Below are positions 19,235-63,982 of a stretch of DNA of 64,000 nt, piece after piece. The notes beneath the pieces were generated by a model. That model saw nothing but the letters and a program-made list of their open reading frames with translations. It did no database searches and was not told the origin of the DNA. Source of the stretch: Golubevia sp. BC0850 (lineage: Eukaryota; Basidiomycota; Exobasidiomycetes; Golubeviales; Golubeviaceae). The stretch's first letter is position 1. Each line of letters starts with the position of its first letter. The position numbers and the translations under genes were made by a program. The DNA is taken from assembly GCA_012976225.1 (NCBI GenBank), contig JAAVVG010000040.1:1-64000 (forward strand). The letters run 5' to 3'.

Positions 19235-20383
19235 TCAGATCTCGACTTCCCAAACCTCGGGCTCGTCAGCCAGATCAACAACTACCTCTACAAGACTCTT
19301 GAATTTCCTTATGTGCTTCCAAGTGTACTTCTGGACGGGTATCACTAATTTCTCAAGAGGTCCCATCCGAATTCCATCGACCTCGACTCCAGCTCTAATA
19401 TCCTCGCTTCTTGATTGAAGATATTTTGAGGCTTGAAGAGATTTCTGAGCAATCGTAAGTACTTGCAGAGTTGGACATCTATGAGCCATATAGATCCATT
19501 CTGGGGTAACGTGATCGATTCGCATTTCACGAATAGAAGAAGGGAGTCCAGAGAGAAGGACACGGGAAGCCAACTTCGAGGTTGAGGGTACGACCATCCA
19601 GCTTGGGAATTCCAGTGAGGATGGATCTAGTTCCAGCGCTTCCAGAAGTGGAAATCGAAGGGAGGTGATATCCTCGTCTTCCACTTCCTCTCTGCCTTCT
19701 AGAGTGATCGAGAGGTGCTTGAGGGATTGAGCAATGGGATCCAGAATCTTTCTCCAATCTAGTTGTTTCAGACTCTCTTTAACGTAAAGCGAAGAAAGGT
19801 TTTGAAAGCGGTCGGGGTGAGATCGGTAGAGAGTTGAGATTGAGGGTGTCCAAAGGACCTGGAGTGGATAGATTCCGTCTTCGACTGATCTGCGAACTTC
19901 CACCTTCCTCCGGAGGCCAACCCTGGGAAGCCATGCGACCATGCTGACTCTGAAGTCTGCCATTCTCGTACAGCCTGGAAGAACCTTTTCATGCAGTTGC
20001 TCCAGATTCTTGACTTCGGAAAACCTACCAGACGGACGAACTACCAACAGCGAGAAGGAGAGAAGGGTTTCCTTGGATTTTAGGAGTGTATTCATGAACT
20101 GATTGAATTTAGGGTTTCTCCCGAATTTAACTTTGAGAGAGACCTCCTTGAGAGTTGATCCGCTCTTGCCATCGAAGACGTCCAGGGCCGATTCGTTCCA
20201 TTCCAGATCCTCTTCCCGTTCCAGCACGAGAGACTGCCAGAAGGATCTATGCTTTTCGATGATCTTCAACCATTGCTTGCAGGCTACTCTGATCCTGAAG
20301 ACCTGGTTCCCGTCCAGCCACTTGAAGGCGACGAAGAGAAGTTCGGAAGGGAGAGAATCGTTAATGGAAGGAGAAGAGATCAT
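19235..20383 (-). CDS. F-box protein with LRR-like repeats (family B)
   Basis: One uninterrupted frame of 382 residues. Residues 10-55 (LPSELLFVAFKWLDGNQVFR, then VACKQWLKIIEKH and FWQSL) form an F-box, which would bind Skp1 in an SCF ubiquitin ligase. The rest has irregular leucine-rich units (LKHLSITLEG, FPLLEALELDP, LQVLTIAQKSL, PLEKLVIP) that could select substrates. It has no introns, unlike the housekeeping genes here. A TATATA-type sequence lies about 170 bp upstream (20551-20560). A stop-containing relic of the same gene sits at 12.2-12.8 kb, so the family is duplicating and decaying locally. The substrate is unknown. Confidence 0.85.
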   Translation of the reverse strand: MISSPSINDSLPSELLFVAFKWLDGNQVFRIRVACKQWLKIIEKHRSFWQSLVLEREEDLEWNESALDVFDGKSGSTLKEVSLKVKFGRNPKFNQFMNTLLKSKETLLSFSLLVVRPSGRFSEVKNLEQLHEKVLPGCTRMADFRVSMVAWLPRVGLRRKVEVRRSVEDGIYPLQVLWTPSISTLYRSHPDRFQNLSSLYVKESLKQLDWRKILDPIAQSLKHLSITLEGREEVEDEDITSLRFPLLEALELDPSSLEFPSWMVVPSTSKLASRVLLSGLPSSIREMRIDHVTPEWIYMAHRCPTLQVLTIAQKSLQASKYLQSRSEDIRAGVEVDGIRMGPLEKLVIPVQKYTWKHIRKFKSLVEVVVDLADEPEVWEVEI

Positions 20384-21211
20384 GGCTTACGAGAGACTGC
20401 TGACAGGAGAAGGTAGATGGGAAGAGAAAGAAGCTATCAGAGGTCGATCAGATGGAAGAAGCGATAGGAAAGAAGAGACGAGACGACTTACCTCTTTAGA
20501 ACGAGTGAGTGGTTGAGAGGAAACAAGAGTATTTGCGAATGAAACGAGCATATATAGTATACGGACTGTTATGTTCAATTAGCTCGAGACAAACCACCAG
20601 AGACAAAGAGTTAATTAATTCAAATCATTTAACCCTAGCGTTTGTCTACTGAAGGTAACTTTCAGCACGGTTCCGCTCCATCTCTCACTCGCACCCTCAC
20701 AGTATTTCTGCTCCTAGTCTGTATACTTCCTTTCGACTACCATTCACTCCGTTCTTCAAGTTCGAAATCTTGATCCCTTTTCATTTTAACAGACATTGAA
20801 GTGATTAAACCTCAAATCATTAACACATATTCACCACTGTCAAGCTTGATTCCATTCCAGTCTATCTGTTCGCGAGCAGCAAGCATCTGACCTGAATCCT
20901 TCCTTGATTCGAAAGACCTCCTTCTAGTACAGCTATTCGCTGAGTGGCTTCTGTCTAATCAGATAGCTTGGTCTGGATTTGAACTGTAGCTCAGGAAAGT
21001 GGGAATCAGAGCAGCACTTGAGGTGAGACAGATGAGACCAGATGAGGGAAGACGAGGAGATGATTGCAAAAAGACTGGAATGGGAAGGAGACGCTATCTT
21101 CGAAGACAGATTGGAGAGCGCATTTGAAAGGAGACTTTAATTTGGTACCTCGAATCTCCAGAGGATGGATCTTAGGAGACGAGGTTGCTGAAGATGGAAG
21201 TGCTGATCCTC
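20384..21211. other. promoter side of the F-box gene, then no gene
   Basis: Holds the 5' region of the F-box gene, including TATATA at 20551-20560. Beyond that I see no gene. Confidence 0.4.
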
Positions 21212-33149: not shown

Positions 33150-33375
33150 TTTAGAATCTCATCTCATAGCAAGACATTGTCTTACATTCTTGGACGAGTT
33201 CCTGCAACAAGAAATTCTGAGTTAGTTGAACACACTTCTCTGGACTCTGACATGATCGCTGACCTCCAAAGCTACAACGCGAATCTTGAATCGTTTATTC
33301 TCTCTGCATTCAACTGCAGTGAAACTCGGGACTGATGGTAAGTAAACGACGATCTCGACCCAGTCTTCCCTTCCT
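33150..33375 (-). pseudogene. relic of the tandem ubiquitin-like gene
   Basis: Minus-strand translation of about 33375-33230 reads EIVVYLPSVPSFTAVECREN then VVALEVSDHVR, aligning with EIVDYFSLVLSFTVVKYRDN and VVALEVSDHVR from 51.2-51.1 kb. The match stops on both sides. It lies in the gap between the GH92 and Trm5 stop codons, so it is a stray fragment. Confidence 0.7.
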
Positions 33376-36392: not shown

Positions 36393-37087
36393 GCAACTGT
36401 AATGGAGTGACAGTTGATGAAGGAAGAGGAATCAAAGAGGAAGATGCGGTCACCGGGAAGGGAAAAGGAGAAAAGTCGACTTTGTCTCTTTTCTATTTTA
36501 CCCTCCCCCCCCTCCTTCCTTTTCCCTTTCCCTCCTCTGTAGAGGTCTTCTTCTGGGACTTCCTCAAGTGTTTCGATTGATTATCTGGAAAAGTCGACCT
36601 GAGAAAACACTGGCAACATGATCTCGATTCAGTTTGCTGCAGAGATTATGGCTAAAGTTCCACCCTCTTCTCGACGCAACCCGCGCGTAAAACTCTGTTT
36701 CTTTCAAAATTTCAAACTATTTCTTGGAATCCATTCCAAACTCTTGGTCGTAGTGAAAAGGTTGGATCTCTTGGTAGTATCGCACGGGAGGAAGGCTGTC
36801 CTTGTTTCTCCAATCTTTATCTTCTCCTTCAACCCCAACTGACCCGTCCCCAACCCACTCTTTCGTCATTTCCCGATTCCAACCCTCCTCTTAAAAGCGA
36901 TTTTCCGATCTGGCCTGGCTTTCTTAAATCCCGCATCTAGAAACCTCGAACCCGGTTCTCTCCTTCAAATTATCAAGAAAGAACCCTCAAGGAGATGAAT
37001 CCCCGATTAGAGTGAATTGAAACAGATAACAAAAAAGATTCTTCTTCCCCTTCCAACTTCCTCTTCTTCCATCTATTCATCCTCAAA
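36393..37087. other. intergenic, promoter side of the F-box-like gene
   Basis: Contains a C-rich patch near 36505-36520. The frame at 36618-36842 is not supported. No other gene seen. Confidence 0.4.
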
Positions 37088-40081
37088 ATGACAACTTTAG
37101 GTCTTCCAACGATGAGTCTATGCATGAATTCACCAACTTACGCTTCAACTTCACTACCATTCGAAGTTCAACGTACAATCTTTCTACTTTTAGATCCACA
37201 TTCACTTTACACCTCAGTAAGATCCTTGAATAACAAATGGAAAGAAACTGTAGAAGATCATTTATTAGAACAACAATTCACTTCAAAGAATTGGAGAATC
37301 GCATTAAAAGTTAGTAGAAGGTTTAAGCATTCAAATCCATCTGGTGGTGGTCCAGCAGATGCAGGAGGGGCAACACCGGCAAACAACAACATGTTACAAG
37401 CCTTAGATGGTTTAGACAAAGAAGACAGATTAGAAAAAGTATTAAACATGGATGGGTTAAAAGAAGATATGTTAGATGAACTGAATGAAAATGGAGAAAC
37501 TCCAGAATTATCATCTTCAAATGATTCAAATTTGACAAGCAGTAGTAATTCAAGTTTTGAAACAAAGGTTAAAACTCATGTCATCCCTTTGAAATTTGAA
37601 AGGTATTGTAATGAAACCACCAGTCTGGAATTCAGTACTGGTGAAGAATGGCATGCACTTTTTGAACAACCTCAAGAGGTTCCTGCTCATGATGGTGAAG
37701 TACAAGATGGACAAGAGAGAATAACAGAAGTAGATCCTCAAGAAGCTAGATTGGATTTGGATTTCGCTATAGTTTGGAGATTCCCGGGTGATGGGAAAGA
37801 TGAGGATGAGGAAGACGAGGAAAGAGAGAGGAAGAGAGGTAGGAATGGAAATAACGTGGTAAGGAATAGAGAAAGGGAAATCACAAGAGAATGGGGGAAA
37901 CCTGATCCTGAAAATAATTGGTTGAGTAGATTTCATTGTGTGAGTACTACAGATATCGTGTTGAAGGAGGCGGATGGGAGGATAGGGAGATGGATGGAGA
38001 GGGTAGTCCCGCATTGGGACTGGAAACTGCGATAAGGGCTAGACACTCCTCTCGAGTCTCTGGATCCATTGACTGAATGATTCAGAATTGATATCAGGTA
38101 ATGAACAACTCATTGTTCTCTCTGCCATCCTTCTATCCATCTATCTCTCGACCCCACGTTCCTCCTCCACCCTCCATACTGATTCCTCTGCTCCGTCACT
38201 TCCACCCCTTTCCCCACGACATCCATCAACTCATTCCCTTTTCCCTTTATCTGCCTTCTCCTTCTTTCTACTTCCTACTCCCTCCCTTAGTCCGGATACG
38301 ACATTTCCCCAGCCCCATCTCTCCCAGCTTCCAGAGTCCCGTCTCCAAATTCCTCCGAACCAAACACACCCTCAAAGAGATTGATTTCAACTCCTCTAGC
38401 CAGAAGAACCCGGACGAAGCCATCAACCCCGATTACGATCCCTACCTCCTCTACCAACACCTCCAATTCCTCAAACACAGCATCAGCCTCTAGAACTCGA
38501 AGGAACACTACCAATCAAAGGACTGCTATCCTTAGAAGAGAGGTCTTAAATCCAGAAGCTGGACCTAAAGAAGCAGAGGAATGTGATTGCTGTGACCATT
38601 CACATGAAGAATCTTACAAAGGGAATCATGAAATCGATGGAGTCAATTCTATGATTTGGTCAGACAAAGGACATGAATACATAAATTTGAATTTGAATCT
38701 GGGAATTGAATTCTTTGTTAGAAGGAGTGCTAAAGCTAATTTACTGCATAGAAAATTAGAAGAAGAAGCAATAAGAAGATTTGAAGATGAAGAGTTTGAG
38801 AAAATGATGGAAGAGAAAAGGATCAAAGGTGAAGCTGGTTTAGGAGATGTTGAAACTCCAGTCGAAATCGAAGATGATGAAGAAGAATTAAAGATTGTTG
38901 TATCTTCTGATGATTCTGAATTAGTTGGGAGTTCAATTAAAGATCATGCTCCTTCAAATCCTTCCGGTTCGAATTCTGAAAACCTTGTTGGAAAAACTTG
39001 GAATACACCTTGGGCTTTGAAGGGAGTTACTAAACCTAAAGTTTCATCTACTAATAATCCAGATCCTTATTCTCATTTACCTTTTATTCATAGACCTAAA
39101 CCTCAAACTGGAGTAAACAAATTGAAAAGTGGGAATGCTAGTAGAACTTCTTCACCTTTATCTGGTTTATCTAGATCTAATAGTATTCAAAAAAATCTAT
39201 CTTCTTTGGTAAATGTTCATGCGAATGATCCAACTTCACCTCCACCTTCTAGAACAAGTTTAAATGGAACAAGATCTAGTACCCCAAATCCAGCTCAAAG
39301 CTCTTCTTTAAATGGATCTTCTGAAATTTCAGATGAAACCTCTAAGAAAGCAATCGCTTCTCAACTATTTTCAAAGAAACATCCAGGTTTGAATCATGGT
39401 TCAGGAGGCAAATTAGTAACAGCCTCTCTACCAGTCACACCATCTTTTTCCTCAACTCTCAGAAACTCATCTGTTTCAATTCAAAACAATTTGAACAGAA
39501 CTAATGAAGCATTATTACTTTCTAACAATAGTAGTTCAGTTATCAATAGAGGTTTGAATCTTCCTACTCCAGCTCAATCAAATTTCGCAGCTATGAAATT
39601 GAAAGAAAGTTTCAGTAATCATAATACTAGACCTTCTTCTAGAACCGGATTTCATACAATTGGAAATGTTGGAAACAATCATTCAGATGGTTTAAGTGCT
39701 ATGTTAAGTGATATGGGGATTAAAAATTCAAATAGTGGCACTGGCACTCCAAGAGCTAGATTTAGAGGTAGGATTTTTAGAGCGGAGGAAATGAAATCTA
39801 GTCCAAGTCCTAAGATCAAAACTCTAGCTCAGAATTCATCTTCTTCTCCGGGTGCAAATGGGGATGGAAAAAAGAAATGTTCCAAATGTTTAGCCAAGGA
39901 GACTTCTAGCTTCCCAAATGGCGGTGCTTGGGAACCTGATCCTGAGGAATTGGTTAATAAACCTGATAGAGAAGGTTGGGTTGGTGGAGATCTTTTGGGT
40001 AGAGGTCAGGTTAGAATGGCTTTTGATGAGGATGGAAAGGAGGAGAGTGGAAAGGCTTATGTTTGGGAGTGGTCAAGGTAA
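37088..40081 (+). CDS. large F-box-like protein, disordered
   Basis: Exon 1 (37088-37939) ends at a strong GTGAGTAC donor; exon 2 (38291-40081) begins after CCCTTAG with SGYDISPAPSLPASRV. Together they give 880 residues in phase. Residues about 20-65 (SLPFEVQRTIFLLLDPHSLY, then SLNNKWKETVEDHL) look like an F-box. Then come low-complexity Asn/Ser/Asp stretches, a segment ECDCCDHSHEESY, NSMIWSDKGHEYINLNLNLG, a coiled-coil-like acidic helix near residue 420, a long Ser/Asn/Pro region, and a C-terminal block with KKCSKCLAKE and GRGQVRMAFDEDG. Exon 1 would also read through its donor to a stop at 38035, a possible alternative short product. Function is unknown; SCF adaptor by inference. Confidence 0.7.
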
Positions 40082-49599: not shown

Positions 49600-51700
49600 A
49601 AAGGAGCTGCTTCATTATTCATTCGTCTTCGAAGGTGACGCTAGAAGCTCTGCGCTCCAAGGATCCGACTTCTAACTCCAGGGTCGATTGATCTCGGACT
49701 CCAACTGTAACTCGGAGAAGATGAGTAACCAGAGAGGAGAGAGACAGCTGAGCCATCTCACTCACTTTTCAGCTTCCAACGACCGCGAAAGGTTTACTCA
49801 CAAACCCATAGACGGTCGCCGTCATCCAGAGGCTCATTTCCATAAGAAAGACCCTGCTCTTTTGAAGGGATTTCCTCTTGATCCTCGATCAGAGTCATGA
49901 TCTTTGAAACTCTAGCACGAGGATAGGTCTTGAAGGTCAAAGTTCTTCCATTTGGCATCTTGACAAAGATCTGTACGGAGCTGTCTCTTGGAGAATCGTC
50001 CTCATCCAGACTGAGATCAACCTCAGAATCCAAGATGTTGAGCTCCCAAAGGGTGGCAGAATCGTTGTTCAAGGGTTCCTCGCCCATCATCAGAGTCTGA
50101 GACGAAGAGAGGAGCCCCATAGAAGAATGAGAAGAACCAATCTTTTCTTTAACTCCAGATCGAAAAGAGAGAGTTGGACATGAATGAGTGACTCCTGACT
50201 ATGTCGTTTCTAGGTCTTGGTCTGAAGAGACAAAATGAACTCACGAATCCCAATCGTATCAGAGGCCTGGACTTGAACCTGACAAATCCGACCACTAGCT
50301 TCCATGATTGAGATTGGAAAGGTTTTGAGCGAGACCTCGATGAAGCATCCCTTGATGATTCTATGATCAAAGAGAGTGTCATGGTCTTGCTGTGGAACGT
50401 CTGAGAAGGAAAGAGTTTGGTGGGAGGCTGGGTAGCCTCTTTTCTCCTCAACCAGCTCCTTCATTGTTCCAGAAACGAAAGTCAGGATTGAAATACAGGT
50501 TAGATCACGATTTTAAAATGAGAATTCGAAGATCTGGGTGGGCGCGATCTTCTAACTCACGCTCTTCGACGCTCATCGATGAGTCAACTCTGGCGTCGAG
50601 ATCGGCTCCGTTTTCGACTCTCAATTGAAGGAGAATTCCGGAAGCAGGGACTGGTTCCAGTTGGAGTAGAGGAGATCCATCTAGATCCAAGTTTCCAACC
50701 AAGGCCTCATCGGATAACAGAACTCCTCTTGAAACTTCAGGACTGGTGACCTTTGCAAGGAGATCGACCTTCAAAGCTCTGACGTTCTTCTAGACTTCGA
50801 TTTTGGTCTTGGCTTCGCCGAAATAGATGCCATTGAGACCAACTACTTGAGCCTCAACGTTGGCTAGCTTGTGTCTAAAATGAAGAGTTTGACCTTGAGG
50901 ACTGTCGAGTCTTATCGATTTGATGAAGTTTTTACCTGCCAGAGCCACGTTTCACCAGATGAGTTGCCGATTGAGAGCGAAATCGACGTCCTCTTCGAAG
51001 TTCAAGATTCCAAGAACTGAAGAGGGAAAGATGGAAGAAAGAATTGGCTGAGCATCAGAGTGACTGAGGGTGACAAATCTGGGAGAGGCTAGACATTCAC
51101 TGCTCTGGCCTCTAACATGATCACTGACTTCCAAAGCTACTACGTGAGTCTCGAAGTTGTTGTTGTCTCTGTACTTCACCACAGTGAAGCTTAGGACTAA
51201 TGAGAAGTAATCGACGATCTCGAGTTGATTTCCCGTTTGAAGGCGAGGAAGAGGGTGGTGAATGCACATCTGTTGTTTCTTGTTCTTCATGAATAAGCAA
51301 GGATGTTTCATACTTTTAGTGATTTCCAAAGATCCGATGACTGCAATTGAGTAGGTGGAAAAAGCATCAGACTTGGTGGGTAGGGAAGAAGCTTCTCGAT
51401 TGATTGCAAGATGAGAAATCGGCGGCCTTCTAATAAAGTATACATGTAAGTGAGTACTATCAGTTAGGATTTGGAATGAATATACTCACTATCCTTTACA
51501 GTCACTGTGGAAGAAGAGCGGAGAGTGTAGGTTGTACCTTCGACCATCACTTGATAAATAACAAGGTCTGGAGCGATTCCAGAGTCAGCTACTGTGTTTG
51601 TATCAGCGAACTTCTTCATGACTTCCAAAAATGTCATTCTGGATTTGACTGTAGGAGATGAGAGAAGAGGAACAAGGAAGTTAGATTCAGCGTGACTCAT
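49600..51700 (-). pseudogene. tandem ubiquitin-like-domain gene, probably disrupted
   Basis: Minus-strand exons encode several ubiquitin-like folds in a row. The clearest three: ILLQLRVENGADLDARVDSS plus ELVEEKRGYPASHQTLSFSD and DTLFDHRIIKGCFIEVSL; ISIMEASGRICQVQVQASDT plus ILKEKIGSSHSSMGLLSSSQ and LWELNILDSEVDLSL; and VQIFVKMPNGRTLTFKTYPR plus MTLIEDQEEIPSKEQGLSYG and DDGDRLWV. They follow ubiquitin's order (MQIFVKTLTGKT, KIQDKEGIP, QQRLIFAGKQLEDG) but lack GG ends. At least two weaker units lie upstream (EAQVVGLNGIYFGEAKTKIE; FTVVKYRDNNNFETHVVALE), and the first exon begins MSHAESNFLVP. A stop (near 50790) interrupts one unit, and one junction (50560/50465) does not keep frame, so I call it a likely pseudogene. 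It could be a polyubiquitin derivative or a new scaffold. Confidence 0.6.
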
Positions 51701-52874: not shown

Positions 52875-52945
52875 TTTTTTTTTTTTTTTTTTTTTTTGTT
52901 TTTTTTTTTTTTTTTTTCCTTTTTTTTTTTTTTTTTTTTTTTTTT
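52875..52945 (+). repeat. 71-bp near-pure poly-T tract
   Basis: Only one G and one CC break the T tract, and it is followed by A11. It lies 15 bp after a GTGAGT donor, so probably inside an intron. It could equally be the tail of a reverse-transcribed insertion on the minus strand, or an unstable, assembly-sensitive tract. Confidence 0.9.
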
Positions 52946-53168
52946 CAAAAAAAAAAATGCTGATTTTCCATGGTCCTATATCACCGATTCTCTCGCACAA
53001 TCAAAAGAAACTCTTCTGTCTCATTCGAGAAGATCTTCATCTTATCCTTACATTTGTTGTTGGATGTGCTCATCCAAACAAGATATCTCATCACCTTCTC
53101 AGGTCTCTGGCTTTCAACAACTTTTCCAAGAGGAACTGAATTTCAGGCTTCAATGCCATCTTACAATG

Positions 53169-62066: not shown

Positions 62067-63982
62067 ATGGCAGCCGTAGCTCAACCTCCTGCAGCAAGAC
62101 CTCTACCTCCAGATATGGATTTGGATTTGGAATATGATTTGGACACAGCAGAGTTAGATGCTATGATGGAGGTGGACGAAGAAGCGTGAGTACCTTTGGT
62201 GGTTAGAAGAGAAGAGCGACTCGCGTCAAGGGGATGGGGTTGAGGCTACTTGATGGGAGGTATCGATGAGATCAATCTACTTTGGATGATCAACGTGATA
62301 GATTGCTATCAAAATGAGAGGTGCAGCGCTAGAATCGAGAGCGATGCGATTGGCTAACTCTCTGTCCAACCCCTCTTCTCCCAAAAGGCTTGAGAAAGCT
62401 CTATCGACAGACAAGTTAGCCATCAGAGCGTACACAAGACATCTCCTTCCTTTCAAATACCTGTTCGCTTGGCTGAATCGAGGCGATCCCAATCTGCCAC
62501 CAACGAAGAACTTCACAAACAGAGAATTCGCTTTCACCCTTCAGAATGACGCTTACTTCAGATACAACAGTTTCAAAGATTGGGAGGATTTCAAGAAGGA
62601 GAGTTGTAGACTTGATCCTTTGAGATTCGAGATCGGTCCAGTTTATAGCGCTAAGGTGAGTCAAGTCAAGCAAGCAGCAGCGGGGAGAGGAGAGCAAGGG
62701 TGGTGGATCGGGATGAGCAGAGAGACCCAGAGGGGGTTGCAGAAGCAAGACTGGAGCTGTTTGTTGTAAATTTGAAGGTATATTCAATCTATCTGAGGTT
62801 CTTAAGGCGTGCTCAGCGCTTTTCGAGTCAGACTCTGACTTGTCTCGCCTACCTCTTCCCTACCTCCCCTCCAGCCCAAAGACAAGAAGACAGTCAACAA
62901 AACAGCCTTCAAACCCATCTCTCGTGAACTAGTCTTCGATATCGATATCACAGATTATGATGACATTCGAGTCTGCTGTCAAGACAAAGCGATCTGTAAA
63001 AGATGTTGGGGTCTAATCGCAGTAGCAGTCAAAGTGCTAGATTCAACTATGAGAGAAGATTTCGGATTCAAACATTTACTATGGGTTTATTCAGGTCGAA
63101 GAGGTATTCACTTATGGATTTCAGATAAGGAAGCTTTCGAATTAGCAGATGAATCCAGAAGAGCTTTAGTAGGATGGATAGAAGTGATTAAAGGTTCTGG
63201 CAAAACAACCAAAAAGGTAGATGGAGGATACATTCATCCAATTTTCGGAAGAACTTTACATCCAACTTTAAGAAGAGCTATTGGAGATGATCATAATTCT
63301 GGACCCTTGAAAGATGCTTTCGTTAGAACTATCTTGGAAGATCAAAATTGTTTCAGGGAAAGAAAACATTGGGAAATCTTGTTGGATTTATTACCTCAAG
63401 CATCTGGAGAGATTGAAATAGTTAACAGGTTAAGGAACAAATGGGAGAAAGATCCAACTAGGAAATCTTTAGATAAATGGGGTGATATCGTTGGAGAAGT
63501 TCAGAAATTAAAACCTGAAAGAGCTCAAAACGTTTGGAAACCCCATTTAGAAGATGTTATTCTTCAATACACTTATCCTAGAGTCGATTCAGAGGTCTCT
63601 AAAAAGATGAATCATTTACTTAAATCTCCTTTCGTAGTTCATCCTTCTACTGGAAACGTTTGTGTTCCTTTGGATGTGGAAATGATTCAGAATTTCGATC
63701 CTATGAAAGATTGTCCAACTGTTGGACAGCTTTTGAGAGAATTCAATAGGAATGGAAAAGATGAAAGTGGGGCTAAGAGTAAAGGCATGGAATGGGATAA
63801 GACCAGTTTGAAACCTTACGTGGAAATTCTCGACAGGTATTGTCAAGGAATCATTAGGCAGGAGAAGGCTTTCAAGAAAGGTGAGTCAATGAAGGTCCAG
63901 AAAAGACCATTGACGAATTTGCGCTGATTTTCTGTTTCTTTCTATCAAATCAGCTCAAGACGAGAAGTCTTACGAGTTCTGA
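62067..63982 (+). CDS. PRI1: DNA primase small (catalytic) subunit
   Basis: Makes the RNA primer in the polymerase alpha-primase complex. Exons 62067-62185, 62319-62655, 62875-63880 and 63954-63982 give 496 residues. Seen: FKYLFAWLNRGDPNLPPTKN, FTNREFAFTLQNDAYFRYNS, IGPVYSAK, ELVFDIDITDYDDIRVCC (the catalytic Asp pair within DIDITDYD), CKRCWGLIAVAVKVLD (zinc-binding cysteines), and FGFKHLLWVYSGRRGIHLWI (the SGRRGIH motif). Exon 1 adds an acidic N terminus of about 40 residues (DMDLDLEYDLDTAELDAMME), longer than usual. Exon 2 was placed after a GAG acceptor because it keeps phase; an alternative start is the ATG at 62314. Confidence 0.95.

Follow-up and report, generated by a model that had tools for sequence, protein, structure and literature searches.

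The window analysed here makes up the opening 64 kb of C34, a contig of 90.9 kb and one of 64 in a genome of 25.8 Mb. On its minus strand lies a six-exon gene model with its ATG at 51637 and its stop at 49619, within the span (49600-51700) in which an initial annotation had described tandem ubiquitin-like domains in one diverged gene. Tandem ubiquitin-like units are indeed found there, six in number (UBL1 to UBL6), as identified by Pfam matches in two exons and by profile comparisons. The features of the locus, in the direction of transcription and with the evidence for each in brackets, are as follows, together with a single fragment found elsewhere in the window.

49619-51637, minus strand: six-exon gene model
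51490..51637, minus strand: exon 1, encoding the N-terminus and the beginning of UBL1 (alignment to the paralogues L013, L015 and L060)
51207..51565, minus strand: UBL1, intron-split (profile match to UBL4 and to ubiquitin)
51101..51340, minus strand: exon 2, remainder of UBL1 and initial strands of UBL2 (gene model)
50868..51191, minus strand: UBL2, intron-split, the weakest unit (profile match to ubiquitin and to UBL3; codon-26 phase-1 intron)
50561..51016, minus strand: exon 3, remainder of UBL2, all of UBL3 and start of UBL4 (holds both in-frame stops)
50952..50954, minus strand: in-frame stop TGA in UBL2 (gene model)
50649..50867, minus strand: UBL3, about 10 residues shorter than in the paralogues (family alignment)
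50790..50792, minus strand: in-frame stop TAG in UBL3 (gene model)
50321..50639, minus strand: UBL4, intron-split (family profile against ubiquitin)
50464..50465, minus strand: splice acceptor position before exon 4, lacking AG (sequence and gene model)
50245..50463, minus strand: exon 4, remainder of UBL4 and start of UBL5 (Pfam ubiquitin; solved linear ubiquitins)
50004..50320, minus strand: UBL5, intron-split (family profile against ubiquitin)
49802..50152, minus strand: exon 5, remainder of UBL5 and most of UBL6 (Pfam ubiquitin; AlphaFold2 for the UBL6 part only)
49667..49979, minus strand: UBL6, intron-split at ubiquitin codon 59 (family profile against ubiquitin)
49619..49704, minus strand: exon 6, end of UBL6 and a C-terminal tail lacking GG, to the stop (read from the sequence)
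33233..33358, minus strand: isolated exon 2 fragment (126 bases matching 51098-51223 at 78%, E 2e-23)

The model runs without a frame shift through 499 codons before its final stop, two of which are themselves in-frame stops. The AG dinucleotide at the exon 4 acceptor is present in five paralogues (L013, L012, L014, L060 and L059) and absent from L015 and the window copy, UBL3 has a gap of about ten residues relative to the paralogues, and the C-terminal end after UBL6 is unlike the paralogue tails. Because of its two stops, the acceptor without AG and the UBL3 gap, the window copy is a broken gene and not an intact one; the stops and the acceptor deprive it of an open reading frame and of a full set of usable splice sites. 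The description as one diverged gene is thus right as to divergence and wrong in treating the copy simply as a gene. At least two other fragments had also been reported elsewhere in the window: the exon 2 fragment at 33233-33358 is one such, whilst the next match within the window covers 21 bases only (E 0.01) and does not bear out a second. A long interrupted T tract (52878-52946) lies approximately 1.2 kb from the family copy.

When six exon ORFs from the window were scanned with the Pfam ubiquitin model PF00240 (cut-off 25.4 bits), two passed, at 49794-50198 (E 7.8e-10, 38.8 bits) and 50210-50512 (E 8.4e-8, 32.3 bits); the remaining four gave no Pfam match near any cut-off. Profile–profile comparison extended the assignment to the other units. 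Here, per-unit family alignments were compared with 120 ubiquitin units, which were cut from proteins with a loose pattern, with at least one false unit among them. In 30 column-shuffled controls the lowest value reached was 0.042. The family UBL6, UBL4 and UBL5 profiles matched ubiquitin at 1.4e-31, 1.5e-14 and 1.5e-11, respectively, and the UBL3 profile at 3.5e-6. The UBL1 profile matched ubiquitin weakly (0.0026) and UBL4 at 6.5e-6; that of UBL2 likewise matched ubiquitin weakly (0.017) and UBL3 at 6.6e-5. Judged by these profiles, UBL4, UBL5 and UBL6 are unambiguous as ubiquitin-like units, in keeping with the earlier impression that the last three are the clearest, and UBL3 is clear; UBL1 is supported, mainly via UBL4, and the case for UBL2 is weak. 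The comparisons show a six-unit anatomy at the level of sequence, weakly so for unit 2.

Solved structures give a similar picture, with the UBL3 profile matching di-ubiquitin better (7.7e-8) than single ubiquitin (about 0.005), and the window exon carrying UBL4 and UBL5 matching linear ubiquitins alone (tetra-ubiquitin at 2e-15). AlphaFold2 was applied to a 114-residue piece of the window copy (mean pLDDT 63.9, pTM 0.48). The expected succession of strands and helix (strand-strand-helix-strand-strand) appears in the UBL6 part, with block pLDDT of 80-91, and is not recovered in the UBL5 part, where pLDDT is <50. This model is only weakly independent evidence and contributes little, because the alignment on which it was built consists of polyubiquitins.

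Twelve family loci were read: the window copy on C34, C1:498k, C32:70k and nine loci on C22 (at 240k, 292k, 540k, 758k, 830k, 878k, 916k, 918k and 1075k). Two further partial matches on that contig, C22:283k and C22:547k, lie outside these twelve. The family is therefore a duplicating one, as had been proposed, although with nine of the twelve loci on C22 it is not local to the window. Short Pfam ubiquitin matches at two additional loci, L017 (C55:987k) and L022 (C44:489k), fit the family profile at 1.9e-7 and 5e-4, respectively, and may represent further family fragments. A candidate at C22:907k was rejected as a family member, its best family match having an E value of 0.85 and its sequence looking, by eye, like that of a SET-domain gene. 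Two of the family loci share a 1.3 kb block (L013:3526-4839 and L014:1017-2330) that is 98% identical between them. Part of this block is a dispersed repeat with at least 40 matches genome-wide, including itself, and in L014 the start of the block is the point at which the UBL gene breaks off.

Outside this genome, a read-through model of L013 matched 159 proteins at E 0.001, and all of the 120 that were listed contain Pfam ubiquitin. A word-based search with the UBL1-5 alignment, of a type that is weak at 30% identity, found no outside homologue at E ≤0.01 among 7992 scored candidates, and no description of such a family was found in the literature at the level of titles and abstract openings.

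GG occurs nowhere in the window model, consistent with the initial observation that no unit ends in this dipeptide, and the 11 paralogue models have no GG at any unit junction, the one exception being the C-terminus of L012, which is also the only readable copy to retain the C-terminal di-glycine of conjugable modifiers. Where GG is absent, neither processing by deubiquitinases nor activation by E1 is expected. The residue I44 forms the centre of the face of ubiquitin that is bound by most ubiquitin receptors, and the equivalent position was compared in UBL4, UBL5 and UBL6. In UBL4 all 12 rows have another residue in place of isoleucine (R, K, Q, N or S, with L010 and L068 poorly aligned there), as do all 11 rows of UBL5 (S, D, T, L or M). 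In UBL6 the position is occupied by I, V or L in seven of ten copies, and K48 is kept in nine of 11. Position 76 is cysteine in five of the eight copies with a readable C-terminus (L013, L015, L060, L018 and L010), in each case in a C-x-C-G context that is also seen in the single-unit gene L011; the residue is glycine in L012, where GG is kept, and threonine in L068. In the window copy, I44, K48 and the tail of UBL6 are no longer present.

To what extent were these sequences under selection? Values of dN/dS were obtained on readable codons wherever a pair reached 60 codons and 27% identity, as 32 of the 66 possible pairs did. Seven pairs with dS <1.2 gave dN/dS values of 0.26-0.37 at dS 0.63-1.14 (upper pN/pS bound ≤0.60), whilst the other 25 reported pairs had dS >1.2 or were saturated; in all four reported pairs involving the window copy dS was >2 or saturated, with pN/pS of 0.57-0.63. 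On these codon comparisons, past purifying selection is shown for the readable codons of the relatives, a result that does not extend to the window copy. When the window sequence was left to decay neutrally in a simulation with uniform sites and a transition bias of 2, its two stops in ~500 codons fitted about 0.03-0.05 neutral substitutions per site, with 0.3 substitutions per site giving about 11 stops. The small number of stops suggests that decay was recent, and our reading is that the copies were constrained for most of their history and then broke late and separately. These results bear on the possibility that the locus derives from a polyubiquitin gene freed from selection, its units being no more than functionless, drifting ubiquitins. 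The units do resemble ubiquitin and share an intron position, and the genome does contain polyubiquitin genes (L024, for example), but UBL1-5 have unit-specific sequences that are common to the paralogues and unlike ubiquitin, seven pairs have dN/dS of about 0.3, and drift ever since ubiquitin would have left many more stops. We regard such an origin as unlikely.

The introns of the family, whose positions were read by eye from displayed translations, provide clues to its descent. In UBL1 (where the intron is that preceding exon 2), UBL2, UBL4 and UBL5, the intron falls after the first base of the codon equivalent to ubiquitin V26 (phase 1). The same codon-26 phase-1 intron is found in both ubiquitin units of L023 (C11:2094500-2099500), a gene in which two ubiquitin units are fused to an AN1 zinc finger (PF00240, PF01428), and because of this match in four units it is probable that the units derive from ubiquitin. 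The UBL6 intron is at codon 59, also in phase 1, and is shared with L011. The four-unit polyubiquitin gene L024 has its introns after codon 62 and is therefore not the direct template for units with a codon-26 or codon-59 intron. It might be proposed instead that unrelated UBL domains were assembled independently into a scaffold, with no duplication of ubiquitin, and both the weak ubiquitin likeness of UBL1 and UBL2 and the absence of the codon-26 intron from UBL3 and UBL6 would fit such a scheme. That four units and a ubiquitin gene share an intron at one codon and in one phase is difficult to reconcile with independent assembly, however, and we consider such an assembly quite improbable.

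L011 itself (L011:2291-2640, at C22:651k) encodes one ubiquitin-like unit in a frame that is open, and a short tail with cysteines, GCACGQ, stands where GG would be. Its upstream region and front part are present as a 97% copy at C22:752k (L012), and a further copy, 86% identical and altered at the start of the intron, lies at C22:831k (L013).

Damage is not confined to the window copy. The counts below are minimum figures taken from the models.

Window copy: 2 stops, 0 frame breaks
L013: 0 stops, 1 frame break (a second frame change is visible beyond the count)
L015: 1 stop, 1 frame break
L012: 2 stops, 0 frame breaks (first exon beyond the stretch read)
L014: 2 stops, 0 frame breaks (cut off in UBL4; one end absent)
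L060: 1 stop, 3 frame breaks (further stops visible beyond the count)
L059: 2 stops, 0 frame breaks
L061: 2 stops, 0 frame breaks
L018: 0 stops, 1 frame break (further stops visible beyond the count; one end absent)
L021: 1 stop, 4 frame breaks
L010: 1 stop, 3 frame breaks
L068: 0 stops, 0 frame breaks (a 278-base stretch is read by no frame and lacks intron ends)

Stops or frame breaks are thus present in 11 of the 12 family models, and no intact copy was found among the best-scored genome candidates obtained with the Pfam model for ubiquitin and with eight exons, taken from five copies, as queries, although exon-based searches may have overlooked one. Two explanations for this pattern were examined and rejected: recoding of stops, since stops of all three kinds occur and at differing places, and sex-chromosome decay as the cause of the many broken copies on C22, since the STE3 receptor matches lie on C62 rather than C22. 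That the window gene is still working, with its stops read through or spliced out or with a short product comprising units 1-2, might be argued from a model with only two stops and no frame shift. The places of the stops differ among copies, however, and with the defective exon 4 acceptor, the shortened UBL3 and the frame breaks in other copies also weighing against it, continued function seems very unlikely. Least probable of all is that errors of assembly or sequencing make intact genes look broken, given that the damage affects twelve separate loci on four contigs, includes substitution-type stops, a truncation and splice-site losses, and that a primase small-subunit exon close to the window copy (62839-63924) is open over 362 codons. 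The primase exon also places the genome in Ustilaginomycotina, the smut lineage of fungi: it is 100% and 78% identical to two assembled sequences and, among named fungi, 62% to Sympodiomycopsis, 59% to Exobasidium, 59% to Microstroma, 58% to Thecaphora and 56% to Ustilago.

The initial annotation also raised a link to SCF biology through the F-box genes of the window. F-box matches are found in two of the five other window ORFs scanned with Pfam (19238-20386 and 37016-38032), but at least 150 F-box-like matches (150 scored of 390 candidates) occur in the 25.8 Mb genome, a large expansion, and because these are spread across the genome the presence of F-box genes in the window is background. 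A listed F-box lies within 10 kb of three of the 12 family loci, compared with 1.4 expected (chance 0.16), and these counts do not support the proposed link. Just upstream of an F-box gene in the window, positions 20533-20718 are 83% identical to L015:348-526, upstream of a family copy on C22.

Taken together, the explanation that we favour, with a probability of roughly 0.65 for the whole, is that the window copy is a recently broken member of a lineage-specific, ubiquitin-derived family of proteins with six UBLs. Tandem duplication of a ubiquitin unit containing the codon-26 intron would have given rise to this family, the intact ancestor being one unprocessed protein of six UBLs. The inner units of the ancestor would have had no GG junctions, and those compared (UBL4 and UBL5) would have lacked the I44 of ubiquitin; the last unit would mostly have kept I44 and K48, with G76 usually replaced by cysteine in a C-x-C-G tail. 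We infer that the intact protein would have been neither cut into monomers nor conjugated, that its last unit may have acted non-covalently as a mimic of ubiquitin or a ubiquitin chain, and that the inner units may have served as a spacer or as a private docking surface, in effect a private five-unit stem. The family would have multiplied mainly on C22 before its selective value was recently lost and the copies broke separately. The ancestral role was probably that of a non-conjugable, non-cleavable ubiquitin mimic, and our best guess is of a stable protein presenting one ubiquitin-like face at the end of a five-unit stem.

Few proteins are as conserved as ubiquitin, whose repeats as a rule remain alike. 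In this genome, a ubiquitin array appears to have escaped, lost its processing sites and evolved under a constraint of its own into a dozen copies, and these ubiquitin-derived copies now look to have been lost in parallel. Should sister species keep intact copies, these would provide a ubiquitin chain of natural origin that cannot be cleaved, and with them one could test directly what becomes of ubiquitin units when freed from conjugation. The interest of the family lies in this escaped and then abandoned array and in its cysteine-ended relatives. A bolder and doubtful proposal is that a fungal lineage made a protein of a new class out of a ubiquitin gene. This protein would be an uncleavable rod of six ubiquitin-derived units, in which the inner ones go unrecognised by ubiquitin receptors and the last one retains the face with I44 and K48 but has Cys-x-Cys-Gly at its end where ubiquitin has Gly-Gly, perhaps for thiol linkage to targets as reported for the UBL3 protein; the gene would have spread to a dozen copies, all of which died at about the same time. 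If this were true, joint death would be expected had the pressure maintaining the copies (a parasite, a host or a selfish partner) vanished.

How does the family compare with known systems? The polyubiquitin genes are the most obvious point of reference, and a passage in PMC10457151 records that divergent ubiquitin genes exist in Plasmodium. Like these genes and L024, the family has head-to-tail units in one frame and a probable descent from ubiquitin. Unlike them, it has six dissimilar, non-equivalent units and no junction GG: neither the window model nor any of the 11 paralogue models has the GG at each junction of a polyubiquitin precursor, and in place of near-identical units only UBL6 is close to ubiquitin, with UBL1 and UBL2 barely detectable as such. 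The statement that the locus is not polyubiquitin holds as far as the missing junction GG is concerned, and is qualified by the probable ubiquitin descent indicated by the shared introns. FAT10 (UBD) comprises two units and has a conjugable GG end. It resembles the family in having tandem UBLs, and the UBL3 profile matches solved UBD at E 7.5e-4. ISG15, another tandem UBL protein, is likewise described in a passage of PMC8764230 as having two units and a conjugable GG end. The family differs from both in not being made up of two units and in lacking a conjugable GG end. The same source describes mammalian OASL as having tandem UBLs without LRLRGG that are thought to mimic poly-ubiquitin (PMC8764230). 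The family, too, has tandem UBLs without GG, but in OASL two UBLs are attached to an OAS domain and function in animal immunity, whereas here six UBLs stand alone in a fungus. Finally, the protein UBL3/MUB is described in part of PMC6158211 as a modifier that acts via C-terminal cysteines, with a disulfide suggested. The family shares with it the presence of cysteine in place of GG after the ubiquitin fold; UBL3/MUB is a single UBL with a CAAX end, whereas the family tails, read by eye, are not of the CAAX type. Both OASL and UBL3 are to be seen as analogies to, and not as fellow members with, the six-unit proteins encoded by this family.
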